A DNA stretch of 64,000 nucleotides from Fragilariopsis cylindrus CCMP1102 (taxonomy: Eukaryota > Bacillariophyta > Bacillariophyceae > Bacillariales > Bacillariaceae), in the NCBI GenBank assembly GCA_900095095.1, contig FMBT01000402.1, positions 1 through 64,000 of the forward strand, given 5' to 3'. Below, one piece after another: positions 13,953-42,090 of the stretch. Position 1 is the stretch's first letter; the number at the start of each line of letters is the position of its first letter. The translations under genes were made by a program, and so were the position numbers. Below the pieces are notes generated by a model. That model did no database searches and was not told the DNA's origin. It worked only from the letters and a program-made list of their open reading frames with translations.

Positions 13953-14839
13953 AAAAACAAATGCAAAAGATCCGTACAACAATATCAAAGTTGTACGAGA
14001 AGAGTGAGAAACAAATTATCGCGCGCGATAAAATATAATAGTTTTTACAGTGAAAATTACCGGATGCTCCAGATTTTTGTGTACAATTTTGTAGATTTCT
14101 TGCATCCATTAAAATAAAAGAGCAAACAGAGATAAACATAGGACGAAAAAAGGCCCTCCCAGGAACGATGCTGTATGCCGGTAGTGATTAGGAAGAGTTT
14201 AAGAAGATTAAAATGTTTGGCAAATAGTAATGGCAACAGCGACGACAAAAAGAAGAAGATCATGAAGGCACGTCGTGCAACTCTAATTAAAACTGGAAGG
14301 ATTGAAGTATCAGTATATCATATAATGATAAGTCCATGGACGGGTTAACAAAATGTGATGTTCATCATTCTTGATAACGTCAATGCTCATATTAGAACTA
14401 ATAGTGGAATGATTATCATAGTACACAGTTATATATGAGAAGCAATTCTGAAGAAAAAATGTGAAATCTTCATTTCGGACATTTTGTATAAAGAAGTTCA
14501 AACTATCTTCAAATAATACTGCTTCGACGGTGTAGAGTCCTTCTTTGCCATACGCTTTGGGGCTTAGCTAGTTTTTAAAAAAATAACTCCTGCTACTGAA
14601 CTCCGACTGGAGGGGAGAAAAGTAGACGAAATAAAAGGAGGTATCGTCTTTCGCTTCCGTATTCGATTGTCAACAAAAGGATAGAAGACTGAACACGAAT
14701 CGACATGACACGGCACGGCCGTTAGGACAATTTTGACCGTACGGTAACCTACACGTTACTTTCGTCATAATCAATCACTTTACCGTATTGTATTGTATTG
14801 AATTGAATTGGAATCATTTTCTATATTTCTATTATTTAT
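13953..14839. other. Spacer between convergent genes
   Basis: About 890 bp between the 3' end of the plus-strand RING gene and the 3' end of the minus-strand fusion gene. Frames of up to 69 codons are present on the minus strand but show no recognisable motif. No RNA gene seen. Confidence 0.5.
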
Positions 14840-17800
14840 TTATTTCTTCTTTTTTAGTGGAATAATAATATTCCCATTTGTATATCGTCGAATAACTGGT
14901 TCACGTGGTTCAATCCAACCAAGTCGACGAGATACATACATACCTAAACAAACAGATTCGGCAACATCTGTTTTGAATTTACCAATATGTTCCTCCAGTG
15001 AATCACGACAACCATAATCATTCACAATTTGACGTGCAATTAATCGTGATGCTTCTTTGGCACTCTTTCCATTGGAACATTCTTTAGTTGTTAATAATTC
15101 CGAACGCCATTCTTCTGGTGATACTCTTAATATAGAATAATTATTCGGTGATAGTGCTGCAGCATTGGACCATATATCTAATAATTCGACATCACCACCT
15201 TCAATAGCAATATGAGTAATTTTCCATTTGGTGGTGGAGGATGACTCGTCGTCGTCGTCCTTCTTCTGCTCCTCCTTATCATCAACATCAACATCCCCAA
15301 CAACTATACTACTACTACTTTGTACTTCTTGTACTACTACCTCATTTTCCCATTTATACAGTATATCAATAATATCATTTTGTAATTTTTTACGATTTAA
15401 AAAATCAAATTGTTCATATCGTAATAGTAAACCAGTATTTGAAAATAAACTGATACCAGATTTTAATCCAAGATCCACTGACATTAATAATTTATTTTTA
15501 TTGATGATGCTACTAGCATTATCATCATCATTACTCTCATCATCATAGTAATCATTACCACCTCCGGCAACTGGTTGTTGATGTTGTTGTCCATTATTAT
15601 TATTTATACGACCAAAGAATGAACCTTCATTATTCCTATTGTTAGAAAATAATCTTTGATTAATAGTTCTATCATCCATTTTTAATATTTCAATATTAGG
15701 ACTAACATTATCAGCATCATTCCTGTCATCATTATTATTATTCTTATTATTATGAAAGACTCGTACCACCACTGGACCATTTTCTAAATGGGTTGCCATA
15801 CCTAAGTTAGCATTTGCTGCATTAATAATGATTGTTTCGTCATATTTATTTTTAGCGGAAGAACCAAATTTACGTTTAGTGATACCCCGTCCTTCATGGA
15901 TATGTCCGACGAACCATACTTTGGGTGGTATCGATAAACGACGTATAGAATTATTTAAAAATGACGATCCCACATGTTTCCCGGTATATGTTTTATCTAA
16001 TATCTTATAGGGTGGTATATGGGATGCAACAATTAAACTTGATGAATCACTGCCACCATCAGCAGATGGTAATCTTGATTTTTGTTGGTGTTGTTGTTGA
16101 CCTTTCAATACACCCGATTCGGATAATTTACGTGCATTCCCATATGGAATGAATGTAAAATCAAATTTTTCATATATAGTTAATGTTTTCGGGGATGTGA
16201 TATACATTGCTTTTGAGGTGGTAAAATCATACCGTATTGGATCATGATTGCCTCGAATTACAATTTTATAGGGTATATGAGTTTGTTTTGCTAACCAAGT
16301 ATCAAATTTTAGTAAGGAATGATATTCTTTTTGTTTCGAACTATTATCTAAGGCAAAGTCACCAAGATGCAAAAGAACATCACCATCGGGTAACGTCTCA
16401 CCCAGCTGGTCTTCAAATCCATGTGTATCACTAATAACAACAATATCAATATATTCCGGCGGATGTATTATTACTTCATCTTCTTCTTCCAATCCTTCCG
16501 TTCGTTCATCATTCCGTAATTTCAATAGTTCTTCTGTTGATAGTTTGGGAGTAATAACAGTAGTATCATCGATATCGATATCAACATCGATATCGATATC
16601 GACATCGACATCAACATCAACATCGGTTACGGCAGTAGTAGTAGTAGTAGCAGCAGCAGAAGTAGTGTCATAGAATGATTTGGTTGTTGTCGACAAAGCA
16701 TTGCTACTGCTACCAGATGGATTTGGATTTGGATAACCATTAATATGATTGACAAATGCTTTGGAGGATGGTAACATCATCATACCAGTATTTTCATTTT
16801 CGTCATGTTCTATTTGTGTAGAGATGGCATATATATTCTCTTCTAATTCTCGACGTAATCGTTCGGCATAGATGATACGATCACCTGTTTGTTCTTTACG
16901 ATTCCGTTTGGACGAGGGATTATTTTGTACTTCTTTCCATTTTGCCAGTAATATATCTTGTTGATGACGTGGTATACCCTCGACATAACTATTACTCTCA
17001 TCTCCATCATTATTATCTGAATTATTTGGTGTTGTTGTGGTCAATTGATCTAACATGGAGGGTCCACGTAATGCTAATTTTCTACGTAAGGATTGGACTC
17101 GAGAATCTAATTTTTTACGTTTATTATTAGTTTTACGTTTTCGTCGATCACCTAATTGAATTTCAGCATCTAATAATTGTCCACGTAATTTAATTTCTAT
17201 ATCTAATTGATCTAATTTTAATTTTTCCTCTATTGTCAATCCAACCGATGATGAGACTATTGAGCTTGATTCTTCCTTCATCTCTTCCTCTTCATTTTCA
17301 TTTTTTACAACTATAACTGGTGGTTTTTGGTATTCTTGTTGTGCAACGAATTCTAAATCATCTAAAAATGTTTGTGGATTAATAAAATGATATTCATTCT
17401 TCACCGCACGTCGACAACGTGATATTAATTCCACATCCGCGGTCACTACAATCGTTTTTCCTCTACCGATACCATTATTACTATTACTGTTGTTGTTGTT
17501 GTTGTTGTTGTCAGAATTGTTATTGTTATTGAAGAAGGTAAAACAGGTGTCATCACCAACACCTTTCGCTATGATATCATCAGCCTTACAAGCATTTCCA
17601 CTAAAGACAATAGCAAATTGTTTCTCTTCTAGGTAGTAGGCAGACGGTGGTGATCCACGATCACCACCATGATCAATGACGACAATTACTTTATTTTGTA
17701 AATGAAAATGATTCAACCATAATTCTGTTTTATCTAACATATCTTGATGACTAAATAAAAAACCAGCTTTGCCACGAACATTTTCCAGATCAATCCAAAT

Positions 17801-18022
17801 GGCAGAGGATAAATCTGATGCATTTGATGATTCATTACTTGATTCACTACCACTACTTCCAATTTGTCGATAGAGATCCAGATGATGTGTACCCGATTTC
17901 AAGCAGTGTGCTTTCTGTTGTTGCTGCTGATTCTTATTGGGATTTCTATTCCGTTTTCCACCCATTGACAACAATGCTGATAGTAAAGGAAGTATAAGAC
18001 ACGATGAAGAAAAGAAGATCAT
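14840..18022 (-). CDS. NYN/PIN-like, calcineurin-type phosphoesterase, RuvC-like fusion protein
   Basis: A single uninterrupted 1060-residue frame from ATG 18022. Residues 1-20 are hydrophobic, which could be a signal or organelle-targeting sequence. Residues 74-225 look like a NYN/PIN (YacP-like) nuclease: IDLEN with D78, VIDHGGDRG with D117, CKADDIIAKGV, and IVVTADVEL with D196, interrupted by an Asn run. A charged helical linker follows. Residues 525-755 are a calcineurin-type metallophosphoesterase with all main metal motifs: SDTHG, LGDF, GNHD, ASHIPP and GHIHEG. Residues 845-1035 resemble a RuvC/RNase H fold: MSVDLGLKSGISLF (D850), IAIEGGD (E941) and KTDVAESVCLG (D1019, E1022). The three folds each normally form separate nucleic-acid or phosphoester enzymes; their union implies an RNA/DNA-processing enzyme, which is inference. 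The low-complexity linkers (Asn runs, a VDVDIDID tract) are diatom-like. Confidence 0.8.
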   Translation of the reverse strand: MIFFSSSCLILPLLSALLSMGGKRNRNPNKNQQQQQKAHCLKSGTHHLDLYRQIGSSGSESSNESSNASDLSSAIWIDLENVRGKAGFLFSHQDMLDKTELWLNHFHLQNKVIVVIDHGGDRGSPPSAYYLEEKQFAIVFSGNACKADDIIAKGVGDDTCFTFFNNNNNSDNNNNNNNSNSNNGIGRGKTIVVTADVELISRCRRAVKNEYHFINPQTFLDDLEFVAQQEYQKPPVIVVKNENEEEEMKEESSSIVSSSVGLTIEEKLKLDQLDIEIKLRGQLLDAEIQLGDRRKRKTNNKRKKLDSRVQSLRRKLALRGPSMLDQLTTTTPNNSDNNDGDESNSYVEGIPRHQQDILLAKWKEVQNNPSSKRNRKEQTGDRIIYAERLRRELEENIYAISTQIEHDENENTGMMMLPSSKAFVNHINGYPNPNPSGSSSNALSTTTKSFYDTTSAAATTTTTAVTDVDVDVDVDIDIDVDIDIDDTTVITPKLSTEELLKLRNDERTEGLEEEDEVIIHPPEYIDIVVISDTHGFEDQLGETLPDGDVLLHLGDFALDNSSKQKEYHSLLKFDTWLAKQTHIPYKIVIRGNHDPIRYDFTTSKAMYITSPKTLTIYEKFDFTFIPYGNARKLSESGVLKGQQQHQQKSRLPSADGGSDSSSLIVASHIPPYKILDKTYTGKHVGSSFLNNSIRRLSIPPKVWFVGHIHEGRGITKRKFGSSAKNKYDETIIINAANANLGMATHLENGPVVVRVFHNNKNNNNDDRNDADNVSPNIEILKMDDRTINQRLFSNNRNNEGSFFGRINNNNGQQHQQPVAGGGNDYYDDESNDDDNASSIINKNKLLMSVDLGLKSGISLFSNTGLLLRYEQFDFLNRKKLQNDIIDILYKWENEVVVQEVQSSSSIVVGDVDVDDKEEQKKDDDDESSSTTKWKITHIAIEGGDVELLDIWSNAAALSPNNYSILRVSPEEWRSELLTTKECSNGKSAKEASRLIARQIVNDYGCRDSLEEHIGKFKTDVAESVCLGMYVSRRLGWIEPREPVIRRYTNGNIIIPLKKKK

Positions 18023-19180
18023 CTTACTTTACTGACGTACAGTAGTGAGAATCTTGATCTTGTTTGTGTCTTTGTTCCGTTTAGATTTCTGTTTCTCCGT
18101 AGACAGTGTCAGCCCCCCAAATCTATCTGTCTATCTATCTACTGAGAATGACTATAACTGCTTGTTCTGATAGACAGCTGTGTCGTTCAACTTGTTTGAG
18201 GAGTGAAAGTGGGTCTATTTTCGAATGTCGAAAGAATCAATCAATCGATCCTTCCATGATGATGTGAAATATTTTCGATGTCTTTTGAATAATCATGCCT
18301 GCCGATGATAAAAGCAACAAGAACTGATGGCCATCGTGTGTTTGGAAGGCAAGTCAATGTGATGTTTCTATTCCAGACGTGGATGAAGATGAAAAATTCA
18401 AAATCAATCGAGTTAATCAAATTAAATCAAATCACGAATACTGACTACAGTAATCCGAGGATGTAACTTGAAACTCGACTCCCTCGACTGACTCATTCGG
18501 GAATCATTCGATTCATTCACATACAGGCAAAACATTCGTTCATTTATTTCACGAGAAATTTCGCGAAGAACAAAAAAGGAAAAACAAAACCAAAATCTTT
18601 AAATGCATACCTCTCCAACCAGGAACATATCCACGATGGAAAATAAAGCGCTCCTATCCTGTCTGTATTGTCTGTTGCGTTGCTGCCTTGTTTTTTTCTG
18701 TTCCCGTTTCTCTTCTTCATTTAGAAATATGCATCGTTGACAGGCCAACAGTAGCATTTATAGTAGGATAATCGGAGCTGTCCACGATTAATCACCCTTT
18801 AGCTAGCTAGCTAGCTACGCAGCAGAAGCGAGCGAGCGTGTGTGAGAGAGAGAAAGAGAGAGAGAGAAATGCAAAAAACACGGGTATTCCAGACTAGAAA
18901 AAAAATAGTTTTCTTAATTTCATTCTCCCACAATATAATTATATTATATTATATTATTTTCTATCTTGTTCATCTTGTCGCAACGAGGATCAAATCAACA
19001 AACACAAGACTATAGGTATGTTTCGGAAATGAATGTGTTGTTGTTGTTGTTGTTGTTGTGATAAATGAATCTAAATCGAAATGAATGAATGAATCAAATT
19101 GTTGTTTACAGTACACGATGATAAACTTATCTCTAATATGTATTTTTCGTAATCTCATCTTCTTGTCGATAACAGCCACG
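18023..19180. other. Divergent intergenic region
   Basis: About 1.16 kb between the divergently transcribed fusion gene (starting 18022) and the LRR-like gene (starting 19181), so it should hold both promoters. It contains CTATCTATCTAT-type and AGCTAGCTAGCTAG repeats, a GA tract near 18845-18870, TACAGTA at about 18030, 18440 and 19107, and TGACTCA near 18493. A CAA/TTG run lies near 19040. Confidence 0.5.
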
Positions 19181-21196
19181 ATGAATACTCGTAGTCAAGA
19201 CAACGAAGACCGAACTGTCACATTAACAACGTATGGAGACGTCGGTGCACCTGGTCGTGGCCCATATGGTCAGACTGATAAAAGATATAACATTGATGAA
19301 ACTTTTGTGCTAAGACTTGGTGGAAGTTGTTTCTCCTTATTATCGGGCCTTTCTAGTCTTACAAATTTGATGAAGATCGAATTCAAAGGTCTTGTATCAT
19401 TTCCTGTAGAAGAATTAAGCCGACTACCGAACTTAACTGATCTACACTGTGAAGGTTGTAAAAATTTTGCAGCACCAGACTCCAATTATCAGTTAACGTC
19501 CCTTAAATGTTTTACGATGCTAGGTAATGGTCCTCACGATTCTAATTTCAATGATTGGATAGTCCGTTCTTTACCAGTATTGGAGGAGTTGCACTTCGGC
19601 GATTCTGTACGACCCGATGGACCTAATCCTTATCCTGACGAGGATCGCCCAGGTATTTGCACTACTCTTCAGTCTAATGACTGTGTATTCAACCAGAGTC
19701 TTCAGATCTTAAAGGTCAGTGATTGGCGAATGTTTCAGAATCACAACGTTGCCGAGATTATTGAAGGGGATATTTTACCTATATTTCCGAATCTGAGACA
19801 CATCGATACGCGTCATTGTTTCTGTCGTTTTGAATTCGGAAGCGACGGTGAGCCCAGTTCTCTTGGAACCGTCGTTGCGTCATCATCTGATCATGAAGCT
19901 ACTGTGAATGATAATCAACATATAATCGTCACCTTGTTAACTTTCAAGGAAGCGGATGAAGAAGTAGATGGTTGCGGTAGATATAATAAGATTGATAGGG
20001 AATACAACATTAACGAAACTACCGTTCTTGACATTTGTATGGAAAGAGATCGTGTATGGGTGTTATCTGATAATATTCAGAATCTTATAAACTTGACGAA
20101 AATCAACTTACATAATATCGTGTCATTTCCGCTCGAGCAACTTGCTATATTGCCGAACCTAACGGATTTAGACCTGTCAAATTGTGAGCACTTTGATATT
20201 CCCGACTCAATTCAGTTTAAGTCCCTAAAAAGGTTTGCGGTGATGGAAACGCTATTCAGGAACGACCCGGATCGTTCTAATTTTAATAAGTGGATAGTCC
20301 GTTCGTTGCCAGTATTGGAGGAGTTATACTACAGCGATAGCCCATTTCGGGGAGACAATCAAAACTGCATTTACACTGCTCTTCAGCGTGACGATTGTGT
20401 ATTCAACCAGAGTCTTCGGATCTTAGAAATCAGCATAAATGTTGATAACCTCATCGAAACTATTCTAGTCGATATTATACCCAAATTTCCGAATGTTCGA
20501 CACCTCGACACCCGAGCTGGCTATGCCGAAGAATTGAATAACAATATTATTTTTATGGATGACGGGTTCATGGGTGCCAATAGTTTAAAGAGTTTAAAGA
20601 ACATCGCACAACGACTCAAACACATCAATACGTCAAATATCAAGCTGCGTACGATTCAAGGATTGTTGGATGGTTTTTTAAGATTAAAAATGACAACCTA
20701 TCCCAAAGAAAAACAAATTCTTTTACATGACATGAGTGAAATGAGAGGAGATTTGACAGTAGAGCAGCTACTAGAAGATCCCGAAGAAACGCAAGCGATG
20801 TTGTCAATTCTAAGTTCCTTTAGATACCTTTACAACATAGGTAACTATCGTCTCAATCAAGAGGTGGAATCAAGACTGAGAATCAATCATGGTGGGGGAG
20901 CCCTTGTGGACGGTCATTCTCATCGCGATAAACCGATCCCATTAAATAATTGGCCAATGATATTAGAACGTGTATATGATCAGTCGAAATGTACCTTTGC
21001 AAAGAATATATCGTATAAGTGTAGTGAGCAGATGCACGAAGATTCTAAATTTATTATGGGCGAAAGAAATGCTACAGGCATCCACAATTTGGTTCGGGAT
21101 GGTCCTATTTTTCAACATATACTTCAACTAGGGAAGATGAAGGTACCAACGCCACCACATCAGATTATCTCCAGAAAACGCAAGGATCCGAACTGA
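19181..21196 (+). CDS. Leucine-rich-repeat-like protein with internal duplication
   Basis: The frame is open from ATG 19085 (703 residues). I prefer ATG 19181 (671 residues, starting MNTRSQDNED) because homology between the two internal halves begins just after it. The upstream 32 residues contain a hydrophobic stretch, so the longer form could carry a signal peptide. Two halves of about 220-230 residues align: each has a VTL..Y opening, irregular LRR-type strands (LTNLMKIEF/LINLTKINL, LPNLTDLHCEGC/LPNLTDLDLSNC), FN.WIVRSLPVLEEL, DDCVFNQSL.IL, and FPN.RH.DTR. The C-terminal 200 residues are helical and charged and not recognised. The role is probably protein-protein interaction; no catalytic motif is seen. 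No intron is needed. The codon usage looks less repetitive than neighbouring genes. Confidence 0.75.
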   Translation: MNTRSQDNEDRTVTLTTYGDVGAPGRGPYGQTDKRYNIDETFVLRLGGSCFSLLSGLSSLTNLMKIEFKGLVSFPVEELSRLPNLTDLHCEGCKNFAAPDSNYQLTSLKCFTMLGNGPHDSNFNDWIVRSLPVLEELHFGDSVRPDGPNPYPDEDRPGICTTLQSNDCVFNQSLQILKVSDWRMFQNHNVAEIIEGDILPIFPNLRHIDTRHCFCRFEFGSDGEPSSLGTVVASSSDHEATVNDNQHIIVTLLTFKEADEEVDGCGRYNKIDREYNINETTVLDICMERDRVWVLSDNIQNLINLTKINLHNIVSFPLEQLAILPNLTDLDLSNCEHFDIPDSIQFKSLKRFAVMETLFRNDPDRSNFNKWIVRSLPVLEELYYSDSPFRGDNQNCIYTALQRDDCVFNQSLRILEISINVDNLIETILVDIIPKFPNVRHLDTRAGYAEELNNNIIFMDDGFMGANSLKSLKNIAQRLKHINTSNIKLRTIQGLLDGFLRLKMTTYPKEKQILLHDMSEMRGDLTVEQLLEDPEETQAMLSILSSFRYLYNIGNYRLNQEVESRLRINHGGGALVDGHSHRDKPIPLNNWPMILERVYDQSKCTFAKNISYKCSEQMHEDSKFIMGERNATGIHNLVRDGPIFQHILQLGKMKVPTPPHQIISRKRKDPN

Positions 21197-22288
21197 CTAT
21201 CAAATGATTATTTCTATAAATCTCCTGTCGGAAAATCTGTAGGACCTATAGTTCCCGCCGCTCCATGAACTATAATATGATCCCTTTCTACATAAATAAG
21301 TGGATGTTATTCTACTTTGAAAAAGAACAACCAAAAGTTTATCCACAATAATTCTCTATAACAACTTCGAGGAAATCCAAGTACTCTAACTCACAATATT
21401 AACTCCTATTACTAATAGTACGTAAGAAAATAATTGTAACCTAACTAGTACAGTAGGCATAGTAGGTAGTTATGGTTGACCATTTGCTGGCAGTAGCAGT
21501 AGTAGCAGTAGTAGTTACAGTCTTATGTAAATTTGTAGTTGTTTATAGTTAAATTGTTAATAGCTTACTACAATATTGCTATCGTGTGTGTCACTACATA
21601 CTAATCACCACTTGTCCTCAGTGTAGTAATTTTCAACCAATGATGAAAGAAGGACTGTTTAAGGCCCGTTATGTTCACAGCTGTTATAAATGCCGTGCCA
21701 TTATTATTTTGAAGACTATCTTAGACCTTTCATTTTCCTCTGACGTGTGAGGAGTGCTGTTTGTGGTTAGAAAGATCTCATCGTGCGTTGATGTGCGTGC
21801 TGAGACGATTTATTTTATTTTTAATGATGGTGTGATGATTGATTGATGTGAAGGTTCTTCATTCACGTTCTGCCTCTCTGGGCGCGGTTTCACGACATGA
21901 ACATACCGTCAGGGGTAATAAATTTCCCCATACCGTATCGTCCCAAACACCTTGACAAAGAAAGGCAGATCAAATAGTCAAATAAAGAGGAGCAAGTCAG
22001 ACATTACGCTACCGTAGTCATCAATAGAAATAGATCTCAAATTACTGTATAAACTTGATAAAGAAGGCGGAGCGAATAACTAAGTAGAGAGGAATAAGTT
22101 AGACGCCACTGCTCTACTACAGACACCAGCAGACGAACGAGAGAAATAGAGTGATAGAGTGATAGAGGAGAGGATATAGATGCGACGAGAGGAGAGGAGG
22201 AACAAAAACACCCACGACCCTACATAAACTACCGTGTGCAACAATAGCAGAGAGAGAGGAGAGGAAATATATAACCGACGGCATAAAT
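21197..22288. other. Intergenic region between two plus-strand genes
   Basis: About 1.1 kb with no gene. Contains a GTAGCAGTAGTAGCAGTAG-type repeat near 21495-21520. Two partly similar segments occur: around 21950-21990 and 22045-22085 both carry CTTGA(C/T)AAAGAA followed by a GCAGATC/GCGGAGC stretch, AAATA and AGTAGAGAGGA-like sequence. This probably includes the promoter of the gene at 22289. Confidence 0.45.
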
Positions 22289-24733
22289 ATGTTTGATTCG
22301 AGAAGAGGAAGAAGAAGAGGAACGGTGGGAGCAGCAGCAGCTTCTTCCGTTCGAATAGTCACGAAAAAACTCATCATCGGTTTCATTTTCATGTTCATGC
22401 TTACTATCTTCGACTACAACAAAAACATCAACACGTTTACTGTCGATGCTTGGGCAACGTCATCATCATCGTCGTCATCGTCGGCATCATCATCTTCCAG
22501 TTCTTCTTCGTCATCTACTGGCGGTGGAGGTTGTACTACTTCTGCGTCGTCCTTAACAACGATGTTATCAAGTCTAATTAATAAAGCGGCTCCTCATTCC
22601 CCGAATAATATCCGTCGTGACAATCGTAATCGGAATCGTAATATTAGAAAATATCGAACACAATTGAATTCTGTTGCTGATAGTAGTAGACGTGGTGGTG
22701 GTGGTGGTGGTGGTGGTATCGGCGTCGGTAGAAAAGGAAGAAGAGTCAGGAAAGGGAGAGCTATGGACCGTACAACATTTAGTTTTGAACAACAACAGAC
22801 GATGAATAACAATGATGCAACAAAGATGGCAACGACGACAAGCAGTACAGCGTTATTGTATTCCTCATCGCAACAGGAGCAACAAGAACAATTACCAGAA
22901 GGTGCTATTACAGAAAAAACAATCCGGAAAACAAGAAAGCATAAGATTTATATTGTTGATCGTTGGAATGCAATGTTTGATAGACTTATTGACTATAAAA
23001 AGGAATACGGTAATACAAATGTACCTAAAATTTATAACGATAACAATAACAAAGACAAAGGAGAGCAGCCTAATTTACCACATTTAGGTAATTGGGTAAG
23101 TAAACAACGATACGAGTATTCACAAGTATACCAAAATACAAATGGTCGTGAGGGACAAACTACACCAGAACGGATTAAAAAATTAGAATCCATTGGTTTT
23201 ATCTGGGAGCTAGGGCGTAATGATGAATGGGAAACAATATGGAATACAAATTTTCAAGAATTAAAATCATTTCAACTAAAATACAATTCAACAAAAGTTC
23301 CAATATTAGATGTGAATAAGAATATGGATTCTGAACATGGATACCATCCAATGTCAACATTAGGACGATGGGTTAAGACACAACGAAGACAAAGAAATGA
23401 ATATATGAGAAATGAATATGTGGATGACATATCATTTACAGATAAAATAAAAGATCGTATCTTATTACTAAATTCAATCAATTTTGAATGGTTGGGTAAA
23501 AATAATAATGACTATGATAAATGGTTAGGTATGTACTTTAAAGTATTATTTGCTCATACTCAAAATGAAACAACTGAACAGACACAACATGCTTCTTCTG
23601 ATGCAAGTAGTGGTGTATTCAGTACACGATTAATGAAATGGTCTGAACAACAAAGACAGAGTAGTAAAGATCTTACACAGCATCAAATTAGTTTACTGAA
23701 TGAGATACCAAACTTCGATTTGGTAGGAAGTAATAATGAGATTATAAAAACATGGAATGACAACTACAATGAATTAGTTGAGTATCATACAACATACAAC
23801 TCATCTTTAATTTCTACAACTGTGAACGAGAATTTAGGTATGTGGACACAAAAACAACGTATTGACTATAAATCTAATATATTATCAAAAACAAAGATAA
23901 CAAAATTAAATCTACTTTCTTTTGATTTTGAACCAAATGAATATGATATTGATACTATTAATAATCAACATGATATTTGTTGGTCTTCAATGTATGAACG
24001 TCTTTTGAGTTATAAAAGTAAATACAATACAACTATTGTACCAAATCATGATGGATATGATCGCCCATTAGCAAATTGGGTTGGCAATCAAAGAGTTAAA
24101 TTAGGTAAATATGTCACTATTGACGATGATGCTGATGCTGATGCTGATGATTATGAATTATTAGTACAACGTATAGCAAATGATATTGGTTGTAATCCAA
24201 CAGATGAATTCCCACCGAAAGGATTCATACAAAAACTATCACCATGTAAGATCGCAAAAAGAATTAACTCATTAGATAAAATTAATTTTGTTTGGGACGT
24301 GCCAGATGCACAATGGTATGATATGTATCAAAGATATGTTACTGATAACAATGATGAAGACGATGTTGATTTACCAATATCGACATCATCAAATAACAAT
24401 ACCAGTAGCAATAACAACAATGAACTGAACCTATGGAGACGAGTACAAAGAAAACAATATCAAAATAATGAATTGTCGTTAAAGCGTATAGAATTATTAA
24501 ATAAAATTAAGTTTGTATGGGATCCACAATCTCAGCATTGGTTGGATATGTATAATAGATTATTAGATTATAAAGAACAAAATAATAATTCAACATTAGT
24601 ATCACGATCCTATACAAAAGATCCTGAATTAGGATTATGGTTACACAGTCAAAGACGGGCCTATAAAAGAAAAACTTTATCAGATGAAAGAATACAATAT
24701 TTGAATTCGATTCAATTTATATGGGAAGTATAA
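22289..24733 (+). CDS. Membrane-anchored or secreted HA-repeat protein (helicase-associated domain type)
   Basis: 814 residues, single exon, ATG 22289. A basic N-terminus (MFDSRRGRRR) and a hydrophobic stretch at about residues 29-41 suggest a signal peptide, signal anchor or organelle-targeting leader. A long Ser/Gly/Arg-rich segment follows to about residue 210. The rest consists of about seven repeats of the helicase-associated (HA) type. Each has W-x2-M-(Y/F), a Y-K-x-Y-x-(N/S)-T-x-V-P strand, LG.WV..QR..Y and LS..RI..LNSI.FVW; the last is the best preserved. The domain is named from bacterial helicase-like proteins and is frequent in diatoms, where function is mostly unknown; nucleic-acid binding is often assumed. 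No helicase motor is present. The leader sets it apart from the acidic HA protein at 32591-34591. Confidence 0.8.
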   Translation: MFDSRRGRRRGTVGAAAASSVRIVTKKLIIGFIFMFMLTIFDYNKNINTFTVDAWATSSSSSSSSASSSSSSSSSSTGGGGCTTSASSLTTMLSSLINKAAPHSPNNIRRDNRNRNRNIRKYRTQLNSVADSSRRGGGGGGGGIGVGRKGRRVRKGRAMDRTTFSFEQQQTMNNNDATKMATTTSSTALLYSSSQQEQQEQLPEGAITEKTIRKTRKHKIYIVDRWNAMFDRLIDYKKEYGNTNVPKIYNDNNNKDKGEQPNLPHLGNWVSKQRYEYSQVYQNTNGREGQTTPERIKKLESIGFIWELGRNDEWETIWNTNFQELKSFQLKYNSTKVPILDVNKNMDSEHGYHPMSTLGRWVKTQRRQRNEYMRNEYVDDISFTDKIKDRILLLNSINFEWLGKNNNDYDKWLGMYFKVLFAHTQNETTEQTQHASSDASSGVFSTRLMKWSEQQRQSSKDLTQHQISLLNEIPNFDLVGSNNEIIKTWNDNYNELVEYHTTYNSSLISTTVNENLGMWTQKQRIDYKSNILSKTKITKLNLLSFDFEPNEYDIDTINNQHDICWSSMYERLLSYKSKYNTTIVPNHDGYDRPLANWVGNQRVKLGKYVTIDDDADADADDYELLVQRIANDIGCNPTDEFPPKGFIQKLSPCKIAKRINSLDKINFVWDVPDAQWYDMYQRYVTDNNDEDDVDLPISTSSNNNTSSNNNNELNLWRRVQRKQYQNNELSLKRIELLNKIKFVWDPQSQHWLDMYNRLLDYKEQNNNSTLVSRSYTKDPELGLWLHSQRRAYKRKTLSDERIQYLNSIQFIWEV

Positions 24734-32590: not shown

Positions 32591-34591
32591 ATGGGTGATT
32601 CTTCTAATGCCGCCAGCAGTGCTGATGCAACTGCAATGGGTGCTAGTTATAATGATGCCACTGTCATTCACCGCCGCGTTAAAAAAGAAGACGAAGACGA
32701 AACAGAAGCAGAAGGTCATAACATGTATCACAATGGCAACTACAATAATAATAAGAATGGTGCTGCTGATAATTGTGATATAAATCACGAACGACTATTA
32801 CAAGCAAAAGTCAAAAAGGAGGAAGCAGAAGGCAACAATAATAAAAAGGACGATCACGATCAAGAAAACAATGAAGAAGCATCAACAACCCCAAAAAGTA
32901 TTGACGACAATTATGATGACGATAACGAAAACGAAAACAATCAACAAGATGAAGGCGAAGATGAAGATGATGATTGCCAACATGATTATTTGTCTCTTTA
33001 TCCTATGGCAGCAGCAGTAGGCGACGATGATGGTGATGGTGATGGTGATGGTGATGGTGATGATGATGAAGATGATATACCGATTGTAGCAAACCGAGTA
33101 ACGTCTTCATCGTCATCATCATCGCAAATCAAACAAGAGTTTGTCAAATATGAAAATAATGATAGTAGTATCACCAATAATAGCAGCAACAATAGCAGCA
33201 ACAACAACAACAACAACAGCATCGAGGAGGAGGAGGAGGAGGAGGAGGAGGAGGAGGAGGAGAAGGAGGAAAGCTACGATTCTAGTGATGACGAGGCAGT
33301 CGAACGAAGGATGCATAATAATAACCGCGCTAATATTGCTGCAGGAATGGATAGAAAAGAAAAAGAAAAGGGAAAGAACAACACGAAGAAAAAGAAGAGA
33401 ATAATTACGGGCCCAAATAATGATAATGGTAACGACGATGATGATACCTGTCGCGAAATACTACACAGAATTACAACAATTCGTTTGAGGAAGAAAACAC
33501 GACAGAATGAAAGAAACTATGATGAGTCTAGCAGTAGAAAACGAAAACATTGTCGTGATGATGATGACAATAATGATGACAATGATGATGACAATGATGA
33601 TGACAATGATGATGACAATGATGATGACAATGATGATGACAATGATGATGACAATGGCAATGGCAATGGCAATGGCAATATGAATGACGATGACGATGAC
33701 AATGAAAGTAAACCACCGGCTAAAAAGAAGGTGAGACGCCATCTATCAACCGATCCCTTCACGAATCCTGTGGGAGGTATTGATGATAATGATAATGATG
33801 ATGATAATGATGATGATGATGATGATGATGATGATGCGTATGAGGATGTTGGTGACAATGAGTACAATACAGATTCTGATCATGATGACAACGATGCTGT
33901 ATCGTCCACAAAATCAAAAAAAGGAAAAGATACATTGGGAAGATGCACATCGTCCAATGCTAGAAGATGGGACAAATATTTCCAACGTCTTGTTGCCTAT
34001 AAAAAGGAATACAATTCTACTACTGTACCTTTCGCGTATAAAGTAAATGGTCTAAATCTTGGAATTTGGTTTAATAATCAAAGGCAGTCCTACAACAAGA
34101 ATGAACTTTCCGTAGAACGGACAAAACGATTGAAATCCATCAGAGTTGTTTGGAACATAACTGATTGTGATCCATGGGTGGAAATGTATCAGTTACTCGT
34201 TGCATACAAAAAACAGCACAAGTCTACCAATGTGCCTGTCAAGTACAAAAAAGATCCAAAACTTGGATCATGGGTTCACTCTCAACGGTGTTATTACTGG
34301 AACGAAGAACTTTCCGAAGAGCGGATCAATCATCTTGAATTAGTTGGTTTTATGTGGAATCCACAGGATGTGAAATGGACGGCGATGTATCATAAACTGG
34401 TGGAGTACAAGAAGCACCATCACGGATTAACGACAGTACCACAACGATACACGGAAGACCTTTCTCTTGGGAAATGGGTCCATTATCAAAAATACGCCTA
34501 CAGCAAAGGTAGTTTGTCGGAAAAGCGCTTGAAACTTCTGAATGCAATCAATTTTGTTTGGTCAGCGAAGAAGAATGCTTCTTCCTCATAA
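32591..34591 (+). CDS. Acidic nuclear-type protein with three HA (helicase-associated type) repeats
   Basis: 666 residues, single exon, ATG 32591. The first 450 residues are disordered: Asp, Glu, Asn and Ser runs (EEEEEE block, NDDD minisatellite block), several basic clusters of nuclear-localisation type (KKKKR, RKRK, KKKVRR), and HDYLSLY at 131-137. Three sites fit the psi-K-x-E sumoylation pattern: VKKE at 30-33, VKKE at 74-77 and IKQE at 180-183. The C-terminus has three HA repeats (about 457-522, 525-590, 590-660), each with W..M/Y, YK..(Y/H)..(T)TVP, LG.WV..QR..Y, LS.ER...L..I.F.W. No helicase motor is present. It is probably a nuclear regulatory or nucleic-acid-binding protein. The shared HDY motif links it to the C2HC paralogues at 2336-7763; meaning unknown. 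Confidence 0.8.
   Translation: MGDSSNAASSADATAMGASYNDATVIHRRVKKEDEDETEAEGHNMYHNGNYNNNKNGAADNCDINHERLLQAKVKKEEAEGNNNKKDDHDQENNEEASTTPKSIDDNYDDDNENENNQQDEGEDEDDDCQHDYLSLYPMAAAVGDDDGDGDGDGDGDDDEDDIPIVANRVTSSSSSSSQIKQEFVKYENNDSSITNNSSNNSSNNNNNNSIEEEEEEEEEEEEEKEESYDSSDDEAVERRMHNNNRANIAAGMDRKEKEKGKNNTKKKKRIITGPNNDNGNDDDDTCREILHRITTIRLRKKTRQNERNYDESSSRKRKHCRDDDDNNDDNDDDNDDDNDDDNDDDNDDDNDDDNGNGNGNGNMNDDDDDNESKPPAKKKVRRHLSTDPFTNPVGGIDDNDNDDDNDDDDDDDDDAYEDVGDNEYNTDSDHDDNDAVSSTKSKKGKDTLGRCTSSNARRWDKYFQRLVAYKKEYNSTTVPFAYKVNGLNLGIWFNNQRQSYNKNELSVERTKRLKSIRVVWNITDCDPWVEMYQLLVAYKKQHKSTNVPVKYKKDPKLGSWVHSQRCYYWNEELSEERINHLELVGFMWNPQDVKWTAMYHKLVEYKKHHHGLTTVPQRYTEDLSLGKWVHYQKYAYSKGSLSEKRLKLLNAINFVWSAKKNASSS
33569..33652 (+). 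repeat. 12-bp coding minisatellite, seven units
   Basis: Seven exact AATGATGATGAC units inside the acidic HA-repeat gene, encoding an Asn-Asp-Asp-Asp repeat. A following AATGGC run encodes Asn-Gly. The length is a multiple of three, so copy-number change keeps the frame. Confidence 0.9.
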
Positions 34592-35083: not shown

Positions 35084-37501
35084 TTATCGTTCTAAAAATT
35101 GATTTTGTTTAATAACTTTTTCTTCTTGTTCATTCTCATTTTCATATTGTTTTACCATTAAATCAATAGTATAAAATTGTCTTGTCCATTTAGTATTATA
35201 TAGAAATGGACGTAAATCATATCGATTATCATCTGGTGAATATCCTTCTGCATGATACGATGGTGTGATGGTACACATTTTATGTCTATTAATAGAATAA
35301 TAATAGAAAAATCGTTTCACTTTCACTGCTACTTCATTTGGACTATGTAGATGACTCCATTCATCTACCAATCGTTTATACATTGATACTGGCCCACATC
35401 TATTTAATTTACGTAATTTACCAAACCAACCAAGTTCTTCATAGGACATACCCATTTCTTCTTCATCTAATTGTGAATGTTCGGCTGCTTGTGCTGCTTC
35501 GGGAGTAGTGTCGTCTCCATCATCGTCAGTAGATGTAGATGCTGTATAATTTGGACGTAATTCTGCTGTGGGTGGTGCATTAGCAATTTCAGCTAATACA
35601 TTCGATGCTAATTCATATTTCGAATTGGACGAGGCCCATACTAACATTGCTTTTAAATCTTGTTTGGATATCGAACCAATTGGATTTAAATCAGCAGAAG
35701 AACAATCATATTTGGTCATATAACCACGTAGTCCTTCATCCACATTCGCTGATCCTAATACTAGTAAAAAACTGGTACCACATTTACCAGTACTAATACC
35801 AGCAGTACTTGAATTACTTGAATGATTACGTACCCATGGTAATAATTGTGCAAATAAATAGGCTGTGACCATACGTAATCTTGCTTGTATATTTTGTAAT
35901 GCTAAATCTTCTGATAATGTACCACCATTCACAAGGAATTGAGGTATCAATCCGCCATTACCAAAAGAAGAAGTTGCTAATGTAAATACTTTGATGACAG
36001 CATTCACCATTAAATCAATTGGTACAGTTAAATGATAACTACCAATTGCATTCCCTAATCGTTTAGCACGTGATGCTGTTATATCTGATGAATTTACTGT
36101 ACCCATAAACACTGTATGTAAGATATGATTGGCAATATCTTGGGATGATTCTGGTACCCACAACAATTTACTTTCTTTAGTAGCAACGTCATATCCACAA
36201 ATACGACGTAAATCATTCAATACCTGTTGATCTGGATCATCTGAATCTGTATCTACTGTCAACCCATTCACATTAGCACTAATTTCATCATATAACAATG
36301 TACACATTGCCATCACAATTGTTGCCACAGCAGAAGAATCAGCACCACCACTTAATGGAAGGAGGTATCCAGAGGCACCACTCCGTCTAAGATAATCCCA
36401 TAACCAACATGCTGGTCCGAAACAACATTCTTCTTCAGGTAGATGATAGTGAACATCAATTGATTTATTTAATTTTTTGTTCCTAGTAGATGATAAAAGT
36501 CGTACATGATCTGGTACGTCAACAATATTACTATTATCTGAACCAGACAATTTTTGTTGCTGGACTTGTATACCAAAGGATGGTATTGAGGATCGAAAAG
36601 ATCGGATCTCATCTAAATCAACTGTAGCAGAAATCACTTCTACATCACATAATGAAAATTGTTTGGATTGTTTTAATATTTGTCCATTTAATACTATCAG
36701 AGATGAACCATCATAATAGAGTCGTCCACCATCACATCCACATTGATTACTATACAAGTATAATCCACCTGATTTACTAGTAGCTGATTGAATTAATTCA
36801 ATTCTTTTATTAAGTTTTCGTAATTCATGATGACTACCAGAACCATTCCCAATGATATCACATCCTTTTAAACTTAATGCAATGTGTGAAGATTGTGGTG
36901 TCCATAATTCTTCACAGGATTCACAACCAATTAAAATGTCATCAGAGGTTCGTATACAAGAACTGGATATACCAAATGGTACGGTATGAGGATGATTTTT
37001 GGTCAAATCATTTTTTGATAATATATCACGAACCCATATTGGGATAGTAAATAAACTATTTTCTGTACCGGTATAGGCAGTAAAGTATCGTGATTCACGA
37101 TAATTACCATTATCTGCCATAGATGTTTTGGGTCGTATTAATAAGATACAATGATTCATGGCCAGTATACGACAATTATAGAAACATCCATCATTGCCCA
37201 TGAGTGGCATACCAAAATCACATAATAAATTTCTAGTCGTTTGTGAATCAATTAATAATTCTATCAGACTTTGCCAAGAATGATTCATGGTATCAATTTC
37301 TAAAAAATGATCTTCACAACCATACCCACAAATTTCTAATTCTGGTCCTAATCGATAGGTTGCCTGATCACGATCTTTTGCAAGACGACAGGATTCTTTA
37401 ATTCTCTCAAGATTACCATCAAAATCTAATGCCCATTGATTTAAAGAACAGGTCGAGACGGTGATAATATTATTCCCTGGTATACTCATACTTGCACTCA
37501 T
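35084..37501 (-). CDS. NADSYN1: Glutamine-dependent NAD+ synthetase
   Basis: 805 residues, single exon, ATG 37501. The N-terminal half is a nitrilase-type glutaminase domain (ELEICGYGCEDHF with the expected Glu, IRPKTSMADNGNYRE with Lys, GCESCEELW with the nucleophilic Cys) that would release ammonia from glutamine. The C-terminal half is the ATP-dependent synthetase: LPLSGGADSSAVAT is the PP-loop, followed by QNIQARLRMVTAY, LVLGSANVDEGLRGYMTKYD, CSSADLNPIGSISK and KRFFYYYSINRHKM. It converts deamido-NAD+ (nicotinic acid adenine dinucleotide) plus ATP and glutamine to NAD+, normally in the cytosol. The two-domain order and length (others are about 650-730 residues) match the eukaryotic enzyme, with some extra low-complexity loops. 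Confidence 0.95.
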   Translation of the reverse strand: MSASMSIPGNNIITVSTCSLNQWALDFDGNLERIKESCRLAKDRDQATYRLGPELEICGYGCEDHFLEIDTMNHSWQSLIELLIDSQTTRNLLCDFGMPLMGNDGCFYNCRILAMNHCILLIRPKTSMADNGNYRESRYFTAYTGTENSLFTIPIWVRDILSKNDLTKNHPHTVPFGISSSCIRTSDDILIGCESCEELWTPQSSHIALSLKGCDIIGNGSGSHHELRKLNKRIELIQSATSKSGGLYLYSNQCGCDGGRLYYDGSSLIVLNGQILKQSKQFSLCDVEVISATVDLDEIRSFRSSIPSFGIQVQQQKLSGSDNSNIVDVPDHVRLLSSTRNKKLNKSIDVHYHLPEEECCFGPACWLWDYLRRSGASGYLLPLSGGADSSAVATIVMAMCTLLYDEISANVNGLTVDTDSDDPDQQVLNDLRRICGYDVATKESKLLWVPESSQDIANHILHTVFMGTVNSSDITASRAKRLGNAIGSYHLTVPIDLMVNAVIKVFTLATSSFGNGGLIPQFLVNGGTLSEDLALQNIQARLRMVTAYLFAQLLPWVRNHSSNSSTAGISTGKCGTSFLLVLGSANVDEGLRGYMTKYDCSSADLNPIGSISKQDLKAMLVWASSNSKYELASNVLAEIANAPPTAELRPNYTASTSTDDDGDDTTPEAAQAAEHSQLDEEEMGMSYEELGWFGKLRKLNRCGPVSMYKRLVDEWSHLHSPNEVAVKVKRFFYYYSINRHKMCTITPSYHAEGYSPDDNRYDLRPFLYNTKWTRQFYTIDLMVKQYENENEQEEKVIKQNQFLER

Positions 37502-38272: not shown

Positions 38273-41200
38273 CTATGTGTTGTGCAAAAAATGCACTCCT
38301 TGAACATCTTTCTGAGAGGACCCGCGCAGTAGTGTTGTAATGGAAACATTCGAACGAGTTCTCCTTGTTCTTCTTTGTGAGGTAGTAGCTAGAGACAAGT
38401 CTTGGTCAGTGTCATAATCAATAAAAGAAATTGCAAGCCTTTGTCGTGCACGCTCAGGAGCTTTTCGTTTGTTCCTAATCTTGCGACGTTGCAGTCGCCA
38501 CTTGATATCACTATCTGCTTTACAATGACAATCCTTCCATTCAGCACATTCGGATGCTTTTATATCACAAACAAAGCAATAGCAATTCGGACAAAATTGC
38601 TCTGGATTCTTCGTAAATGACTTTACAACACATTCGTGCCTTGGATGAGGATAATCCGACAGGGCATTCTTTCCAGTTGATCCAGTGATTGAATATCACC
38701 ATTGTCCTTCAGTGGGTCAAATCTTTCTTCGTTTCGCTCTTCTTCCTCTAGGAGGTCATCAATATCAATAGGTGCTGATGATGATCCAATAACAATAATG
38801 TCATCGTTGTCCTCAATAGTTTCTTCTTCTTCTTCTCCAACTTGTTGGTGGTCTGAAGCTCGTGGCTTTAGTGTATCTTCGCTTTCTTTTTCGTGTTCTT
38901 CTCCCTTTTCCTCGTTAAGAAGATCAATAATAGAAGGTGACGGATCATCATCATGTCGATTCTTGCTTTTATCGGTTATACTACCATTTGGGAAATTACA
39001 TCGTTCAACATCATCGTCGTTCATTGCTGTTTTACTTCTAATTTCAGTTACAGGATGGGAAATCACAATACCCTTTTGAGCAGTTTCATCTGCCTTCGAT
39101 TGAAGTGAGATTTGAAGCTTAGTGAGCTCTACTTGATCTTCGTCCTTGTCGTCATCAAGGAGATCAATAACATCATGACCTGCTGATGTAGCTTCACCTC
39201 GTTTGTCACTATTATCTTCGCCATTACGTTGTGGGTTAACAATTGGATGTGGAACATCATTATCATTTTGAGACAATCCATCTGCCATTGATTGAGGAGA
39301 GATTTGTAGTTTCGTGAGCTCTGCTCGATCTTCGTCATTGTCGTCATCAATTACTTCACGACATGCTGATTTTCGCTTAGGTCTTTTGTTATCTTGCTCA
39401 ACAATCGACTGCCCAACCGACTCCAACATGGTAATAGTAGAAATAGAGTTTGGGAGGGCGGGACCACCAATAGATGGAGTTCTCAATCCAACTAATGCTT
39501 TTTTAATCTTGGTTATGACATCCAATCGCGGAACAACATGCCATTGATTTGTACTATCGGCTTTTAAGAATCGACCACCAATTTGATAATGAATATGATC
39601 AATAACCATATTAGCAACTAAAGCTCTATCACCTATAGCCTCCAATTGAGGTCTATATTTTTTTACAATATCCCTATAAACTTTATTCCCAGGATGTTTC
39701 TTACATTTCCGTGGTCCCATTAGAACATCATGATCATTCACATCATCAATCACAATGCTTTGAGGCAGAAGATAAAGAGAGAAATCATCAGTAGCAATAG
39801 ACATATGATTTTTGTCTCCGTCATCTTTATTGGTAGTAGCAGCGAGATTGGTCGCAGCAGAAGACGTAGCATTAATCCGTGTTTGAGGTACATCCAAGTC
39901 TTCTCTTTCTAATGATTGGATGATTGCTTCGGATGGTAAACTGATTCTGACCATTCTACTAGTAGATGATGTGTCATTCACAGCGGTGATTGTGTTAGCA
40001 CTATTGAACTTTTTGCGTGCCGCTTTCGTCACATACTGATTTTTCTGAACTGGATTAACAAAATCTAATCTCTTAACTTGGCCACGAACAAAGTGCGGGT
40101 GACGGTATCGGTAACTTCCTTCAGTATCATTACCAACAATTTTTTCGAATCCAAAATAAATCAAGGAATCTTCAAACGAAGAAAATATCATACACCATCT
40201 CTTACGAATACACCGCCGCCTTAAGATCCTATTCGCAGATAAATGTACCTTGGGGATTACAAATGAATCCCCTGAAGGGAGCCAATGAATAAAATCTGCG
40301 TAGCCTTTTTGTTCCGAGTCTTCCAACATATTATAAAGCTCCCTTGGAAAATGCCGTGATCGCGAGACATTGAGCTGTCGTCGGAATTTTTGGAAATATC
40401 TAGCTTGTTTAGATTCGGATATAACTCGTTCAGATTCTGATCTTCTTTCCTTTTTTTTCGGTTTTGTCAAGATGCCATTGGATTCGTCAGTCATAATGTC
40501 TTCGTTGGTTTCTTCAGTTCTGAAGTCGTCAATAATTTTCCTTTTGTCTGAATGCTTTGTCAATGTGTGTTTTCGGTGTACTAGATTGAATGGTAACACA
40601 TAATCGATGACACCATCCACTACGACTCGTATTCGTTTTATGTCCATTAGATTAACTCCAGCGGCAACATCTCTAGTCCTTGCCTTTTTTTGGCTGCGAC
40701 GTGAAGCAGAATGCCTAGGGCTATTTTCCCTCTTACATTTCGAAAGCCTAGAACTTGGAGTGTTTTTCTGAGGTGATACATCACTGCTTTTAATTGTCTC
40801 ATAGTGAGAAAGTAGATGATCTATTCCTTCTCTTAAAAACTCTTCAGAATCTCCATCATCATATAGCACATGGTAAAACTTATTCTTTGGGCAGAACTTA
40901 TCCAAAGTACCAAAATAGATTTCGCCATTGAAGTCCTTCCCAATACGCCTACCAATCAAATCTTTTCCAGCATCTATATCCAACTGTTTTGGAATAAGGA
41001 TTGACTTTTTTTGACTTTGCTGCTTCGTTTTGTTTAAATTTTTACTAACACTCGAGCAAACATCTAAGTCTGTTGTTTTGAGACCGGCATTTGTTACAAC
41101 TACGTTCGACTTGTCCATCACACTTCTCTGTTCTTGTTGAAGCCTATCAAGTTCGATTTGATATACCACTCCCACTCGAACATTCTTGTCCATGAAGTCA

Positions 41201-42090
41201 AGATACATCTTGATTTTTGATTCAAAAGAAGGACCAAAAGATTTCGTCCTGTTGAATACCTGGTACGCTGCGAAAGCTCTAGCAACAAAGATTTGACATT
41301 TGAAACAATTTCGCTTTTCGGTATCAAAAATAAATGCCTTTTCTTTGTTATTTTTGTTTGAAGCTAGGCTAAGATAATTTTCTTCGAAACCCCAAGTCTC
41401 TAATGCCTATGAAAAAGGAAACGGGTGAGTGGATTTATTACTGTATGGAAATTATTTCCTCCTGAGTAGCAGAAACAATATCCGTATTGATCACGTTCGA
41501 ATTCACATTCACAATAACATACGTACCTCTATCACAAGTTCAAAACAATTTAAACTTGAAACAACAGATCCTAATACATTGGTATCACCTCTTGAAAATC
41601 GTTCTCCGTATAAACATAGAAGCAGATCTCTTTTCGGGATTGAACCAAAGTCTCGACCTCTAATTCTTCCTCCCAACCAGTTTACACTAAATATAATTCC
41701 AGATTCTAGAATTTCTAAACGTGCATTCAGTAGGTGACGAGCATTCTCCCCATGATAGAATACGTCATATAATTCTTCGAAACAAGCTTCGTCCGACTCG
41801 GCACATAGTTGACCATCGTAAGGGGATTGTGTGATGTTTGGCATTTTATCTCGAGTATTTTTCGTAGTAGTAGTTGTAGCAGTAGCAGCAGTAGCAGTAG
41901 TAGGACGAGGAGAAACAATTATAGCATCCGATGCAGCTAAATCGACTGCTGATTTGTTGTTGATGTAAAAAGAAGAAAAATCTATCTTCAAGTGTTGCTG
42001 TGGTTTACTTCCAACGCCACTGCTCCTGGAGGTATCATGTGAAGATATCATCGTCGTTGTCGACGTCGCAATTGTCGCCATTGTCGCCAT
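38273..42090 (-). CDS. Tudor-like, HSF-like, DUF6824 fusion protein with SIM-like motifs; frameshift near C-terminus
   Basis: Exon 1 is 42090-41527; a 120-bp intron (gtacgt...catag, 41526-41407) precedes exon 2. Joined, the frame runs 1115 residues to a stop at 38623. Domains: an unrecognised N-terminus; a Tudor-like segment at about 336-392 (GRRIGKDFNGEIYFGTLDKF, YHVLYDDGDSEEF); an HSF-type DNA-binding segment at about 538-637 (FPRELYNMLEDSE, FIHWLPSGDSFVI, YFGFEKI, HPHFVRGQ), degenerate in its recognition helix; and a DUF6824-type domain at about 746-830 (DVLMGPRKCKKHPGN...GGRFLKAD). An acidic tail has VIDLLDDD, IIDLLNEE and DIIVIGSSS, typical of SUMO-interacting motifs. A frameshift at about 38650-38660 ends the frame early. 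One more C in the CCC run restores SDYPHPRHECVVKSFTKN and a Cys-rich module (CPNCYCFVCD...C...CHC) to a stop at 38273. Likely a chromatin-associated regulator. Confidence 0.75.

Follow-up and report, generated by a model that had tools for sequence, protein, structure and literature searches.

A diatom open reading frame predicted to join YacP-like NYN, MPPED-like phosphoesterase and RuvC-like domains in one protein

The closest described systems to the gene considered here are the YacP-type NYN nucleases (PF05991), the class III metallophosphodiesterases MPPED1 and MPPED2, and the RuvC-type Holliday-junction resolvases, which include RuvC, MOC1, the poxvirus resolvase and Ydc2. PIN/NYN nucleases leave 3'-OH ends. 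MPPED1 and MPPED2 are stand-alone proteins. A fly MPPED relative is reported to be a phosphodiesterase that depends on metal and hydrolyses 2',3'-cAMP as well (PMC10547211); the other literature used comprises PMC3985635, PMC7078210 and PMC11183143. Here, we describe a gene in a 64,000-nucleotide stretch of the diatom Fragilariopsis cylindrus CCMP1102 (contig FMBT01000402.1, positions 1 to 64,000; hereafter the window) that is predicted to encode relatives of all three in a single protein (Table 1). The genome assembly analysed comprises 67.9 Mb in 818 contigs. A preliminary description had assigned NYN/PIN-like, calcineurin phosphoesterase and RuvC-like domains to this protein, and the motifs it listed for each were found in frame at the correct coordinates. 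The assignments hold and can be sharpened to a YacP-like NYN domain, an MPPED-like phosphodiesterase and a RuvC-type resolvase fold, the first coming from profile comparison only. The multi-step RNA/DNA processing proposed in that description is a putative role.

The gene is encoded on the minus strand, where window positions 18022 to 14840 form a single open frame of 1060 codons. On the plus strand, the same interval contains 93 stops. Among 200 shuffles of the gene's own bases, the longest open run was 122 codons, so the frame extends far beyond chance. A second copy, on contig C648, is likewise uninterrupted (1034 amino acids), and its protein is 89% identical to that of the window. Approximately 30 kb around this copy aligns with window positions 2750-34112 at 85-89% identity, and we interpret the two contigs as divergent haplotypes. 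At an expectation value (E) of 1 or less, the phosphoesterase segment has matches at just these two loci in the genome. Inside the open reading frame (ORF), the haplotypes differ by 18 indels. Of these, 16 have lengths divisible by three and two measure 1 and 5 bases; in the flanks, 3 of 23 are so divisible. The ratio of nonsynonymous to synonymous divergence (dN/dS) between haplotypes is 0.29 for the whole ORF. By part, it is 0.08 for the NYN domain, 0.41 for the phosphoesterase, 0.21 for the RuvC-like domain and 0.31-0.47 for the linkers. Because the second haplotype keeps the frame and the ORF indels are mostly multiples of three, one polypeptide is by far the likeliest reading of the sequence. 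The earlier claim of one gene in one open frame is thus backed by the haplotype copy, the in-frame indels and dN/dS alike.

The haplotype comparison also revealed a rearrangement. A 7.4 kb block carrying the fusion gene (window 14111-21509) is inverted relative to approximately 275274-282681 of C648. Synonymous divergence (dS) drops along the gene, from 0.45-0.70 over residues 73-345 to 0.09-0.15 over residues 346-1045, which looks like past conversion or recombination.

The middle domain is, by sequence, an MPPED-like phosphoesterase with a full set of metal ligands and a predicted phosphodiesterase activity. Scanned alone, the segment matches PF00149 over residues 527-710 (E 2e-13; 51.7 bits against a cut-off of 21.5). 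The whole-protein Pfam scan listed only PF12850, at E 2.1e-4 and under its cut-off, and not PF00149. The closest solved relative by sequence is MPPED2 (3rl4; E 8e-10). The DxH, GDF, GNH and GHIHEG motifs are present in the window domain, and the metal and phosphate ligands D532, H534, D555, N592, H593, H668, H707 and H709 are found in both haplotypes. Unlike MPPED1 and MPPED2, the window domain is fused to others and has an internal low-complexity insert. Of the segment-by-segment profile searches proposed in the preliminary description, this one gave a Pfam match, while those for the NYN and RuvC-like segments did not.

The C-terminal domain is, as modelled, of the RuvC-type resolvase fold (RNase H-like). 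Its predicted structure fits Holliday-junction resolvases, with DNA junction resolvases ranking first, and TEFM, Spt6 and Tex also appear among the structural matches. An RNase H-type fold for residues 845-1035 had been set beforehand as a test, and the prediction came out in favour of it. The segment has no match in Pfam or NCBIfam, including PF02075 (Pfam RuvC), for which hhalign gave a non-significant 0.5%; a marginal match to 'Holliday junction resolvase' was obtained in PHROG (E 0.009). Residues D850, E941, K989, D1019 and E1022 sit at invariant columns of a bacterial family described below. Their putative equivalence to RuvC and MOC1 residues is drawn from spacing and from two papers. 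Thr1018 occupies a column where the family has His (57 of 59 rows), with an Asp (D1019) next to it; the third-metal residue is His in MOC1 and Asp in E. coli RuvC. Compared with RuvC-type resolvases, the window domain lacks the PF02075 match, carries an acidic insert and is fused to two other domains, and its cleavage of junctions is predicted only. No relative of the domain was found in viral contigs, plasmids or phages, nor of the whole fusion protein in viral contigs.

Relatives were found in bacteria. Bacterial and archaeal genomes were scanned with a probe alignment that combined the window domain with three synthetic rows. The pattern matched 218 stretches; in a tblastn comparison with the window sequence, 113 of them proved to encode a relative (best E 4e-17), and 80 loci were kept (L004-L083). 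Judged by their titles, these come from Myxococcota, Lentisphaeria, Rhodothermales, Desulfuromonadales, Planctomycetes, Chloroflexi, Nitrospirota, Gemmatimonadetes, and others. A hidden Markov model of the 80 loci scores the window domain at 86 bits (E 1.1e-25), with 998 shuffles reaching at most 5.1, a result that is partly circular because similarity to the window was how these loci had been selected. In an alignment of 60 rows (59 loci and the window), the window domain is 26-36% identical to its bacterial relatives over the whole domain and shares their invariant columns. It differs from them in being fused, in its acidic insert and in having Thr in place of His. The bacterial members look to be stand-alone proteins of approximately 145-170 amino acids, the upstream frame ends being provisional in loci rich in guanine and cytosine.

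This bacterial family is unnamed. Six members were scanned: none matched NCBIfam, and none matched Pfam at better than E 0.1. At E of 1 or less, 43 of the 60 rows match PHROG 1770 (best 3.6e-7) and 19 match PHROG 159 (best 1.7e-4), both named as Holliday junction resolvases. The family is present in 27 of 97 Myxococcota genomes, with one match per genome. Ordinary RuvC was detected in 36, and RuvX in 33, of 39 Myxococcota genomes. The family is therefore additional to RuvC and RuvX. Compared by hhalign, RuvX gives 46% with the bacterial family and 0.5% with the window domain. The alignment found no relative in viral contigs, nor among sequences of the Protein Data Bank (three unrelated matches, E 0.76 or worse), and one member (L030) had none in plasmids and phages. 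The 80 loci, many of which sit on short contigs, have 2657 ORFs no more than 4 kb away; among these ORFs, there was no window-type NYN domain at E of 1 or less and a single metallophosphoesterase match (E 0.35). YacP occurs in 2 of 20 genomes carrying these loci. Recurring neighbours were found mainly among Rhodothermales/Bacteroidetes.

The N-terminal domain is likely, though not proven, to be a distant relative of YacP-type NYN/PIN proteins. The segment has no match among Pfam, NCBIfam or PHROG models. Compared by hhalign with 30 bacterial YacP proteins, it gave a probability of 87% (P 3.7e-6; score 39.2, against at most 15.2 in 30 shuffles). With the poly-Asn insert replaced, these values rose to 94% (P 9.3e-8; score 47.1, against at most 19.1 in 60 shuffles). 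The same comparison with RuvC, RuvX and the bacterial RuvC-like family gave at most 0.3%. The match spans the IDHGG, KADD and VVTAD stretches in the second half of the domain and leaves the first motif, IDLEN, outside. Generic NYN (PF01936) was set aside in favour of the YacP branch, as it gave just 1.5-2.4% against the window domain; YacP and PF01936 themselves reach only 7%. Unlike YacP-type nucleases, the window domain carries a poly-Asn insert, is fused and escapes the Pfam model. PF05991 misses the window gene both in the segment scan and in the genome search, finding contig C524 instead. There, a separate gene (C524:37456-37956; L084, L085) clearly matches the Pfam YacP model, in two pieces. 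A PIN fold for residues 74-225 had likewise been set beforehand as a test; a single-sequence AlphaFold2 model of the NYN segment had a pLDDT (predicted local distance difference test) of 34, too low to judge the fold. No relative of the domain was found in plasmids (one match, E 3), viral contigs or 146 Myxococcota genomes (6 matches at E of 1 or less, best 0.042).

How these domains might act together can be framed as a working model. We tentatively favour one large enzyme in which three metal-dependent hydrolase domains, joined by disordered and basic linkers, process branched DNA or RNA-containing intermediates. The RuvC-like domain would dimerise and, by analogy with RuvC and MOC1, nick four-way or similarly branched DNA by two-metal catalysis. 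The NYN domain would cut RNA, and the phosphoesterase domain would hydrolyse phosphodiesters, perhaps 2',3'-cyclic ends. The overall role would most likely lie in recombination, repair or the upkeep of organelle DNA, the RuvC-like domain serving as the structure-specific cutter. The single frame, the phosphoesterase family and the active-site residues are seen in the sequence, and the RuvC-type fold in a model; the substrates, dimerisation, domain cooperation and cellular location are inferred. A more specific version, a new kind of eukaryotic enzyme for branched nucleic acids, is doubtful: an unrecognised RuvC-like branch of bacterial origin, acting in cis with an RNA nuclease and a phosphodiesterase that processes ends, might remove R-loops or junctions that contain RNA, perhaps within an organelle.

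An enzyme centred on RNA is a less probable alternative, though not a negligible one. Here, the NYN domain would cleave RNA, the MPPED-like domain would trim 2',3'-cyclic phosphates or open them, and structured RNA or RNA:DNA hybrids, not Holliday junctions, would be what the RuvC-like domain acts on. The YacP-like character of the N-terminal domain fits this, as does the activity on 2',3'-cAMP described for the fly MPPED (PMC10547211). The NYN domain also has the lowest dN/dS of the three. However, DNA junction resolvases are the top-ranked structural matches of the RuvC-like model, and the bacterial family has no known RNA substrate. Moreover, 3'-OH ends of the kind left by PIN/NYN nucleases would need no cyclic phosphodiesterase.

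It is somewhat less probable again that the protein is a partly or wholly inactive scaffold, one or more of its domains keeping the fold to bind nucleic acids without catalysis, as TEFM and Spt6 do with their RNase H folds. The presence of TEFM, Spt6 and Tex among the structural matches would suit such a role, as would the replacement of the family's His by Thr1018 and the dN/dS of the phosphoesterase, the least constrained domain. Against this, both haplotypes retain every listed metal-ligand position, and the five residues of the RuvC-like domain fall on columns that are invariant in the family. The long low-complexity linkers between domains could further suggest two or more genes, or an artefact of the gene model, read as one frame. 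This is very improbable, given the same uninterrupted fusion on two contigs, the 16 of 18 indels that keep the frame and linker dN/dS values of 0.31-0.47.

Table 1. Features of the fusion gene, with residues of the predicted protein and positions in the window
Feature	Residues	Window positions	Strand	Evidence
Whole ORF	1060 amino acids + stop	14840..18022	minus	sequence; second haplotype copy
Hydrophobic N-terminal stretch	1-19	17966..18022	minus	kept between haplotypes
YacP-like NYN domain	73-231	17330..17806	minus	hhalign to YacP; D78, D117, D148, D149, D196
Poly-Asn insert in NYN domain	165-187	17462..17530	minus	sequence; shorter in C648 haplotype
Linker	232-520	16463..17329	minus	sequence; acidic, then Lys/Arg-rich, then low-complexity Asp-Val/Asp-Ile
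MPPED-like calcineurin phosphoesterase domain	525-770	15713..16450	minus	PF00149, MPPED2 match
Linker, Asn/Asp-rich	771-844	15491..15712	minus	sequence
RuvC-like domain	845-1045	14888..15490	minus	bacterial relatives, hidden Markov model, structure model and fold match, invariant columns
Acidic insert in RuvC-like domain	895-934	15221..15340	minus	low pLDDT; lacking in aligned bacterial rows

Translation probably starts at the first ATG, since the first 57 nucleotides of the ORF are better kept between haplotypes (93% identity) than the sequence upstream (72%), and the ATG has an A at -3 in both. The hydrophobic start is a candidate signal, a candidate anchor or a candidate portion of a presequence. 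A 5' intron was considered, since the hydrophobic start resembles the polypyrimidine tract that would follow a GTAAG donor, but is not supported, as the C648 haplotype lacks the donor yet keeps the 57 nucleotides. In the first linker, the Lys/Arg-rich part is probably helical, and a Pfam scan of residues 235-500 gave no match.

The window holds 17 other ORFs of at least 200 amino acids. Ten of these were scanned against Pfam, and four gave matches, including helicase-associated (HA), HSF and DUF6824 domains, all of which are common in diatoms. The inverted block also holds a 703-residue ORF (19085-21196) that is leucine-rich-repeat-like by eye, with no Pfam match at 0.001; matches of 67-68% within the block suggest an internal duplication in this ORF. 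HA domains occur in the ORFs at 22289-24733 (six stretches) and 32591-34591 (three stretches). The ORF at 35084-37501 has carbon-nitrogen hydrolase and NAD synthase domains, like glutamine-dependent NAD synthetase. An 861-residue ORF (38623-41208) combines PTM/DIR17-like Tudor, HSF DNA-binding and DUF6824 domains.

A search of the open-access literature found no paper on the three-domain fusion, which may well occur in further diatoms, annotated as a predicted protein without a name. What is new is the combination of domains and the unnamed RuvC-like family, the parts themselves being of known kinds. To our knowledge, the resolution of recombination junctions has been little studied in algal organelles with secondary plastids; plants use MOC1. 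A genome-wide search that covered PF02075 and Ydc2 but not MOC1, and in which introns can hide genes, found no PF02075 match. A weak Ydc2-type match (C121:20178-20501; E 0.003, below cut-off) contains five stops and may be a split gene or chance. These results leave room for a role of the fusion protein as an organelle junction resolvase without showing it, and the protein is a candidate for that role, no more. A RuvC-like family that is spread over many bacterial phyla, and whose six scanned members match neither Pfam nor NCBIfam significantly, appears to have been recruited into a eukaryotic protein alongside two other hydrolase domains. If the predicted activities hold, one polypeptide would combine RNA cleavage with the hydrolysis of phosphodiesters and the cutting of junctions.
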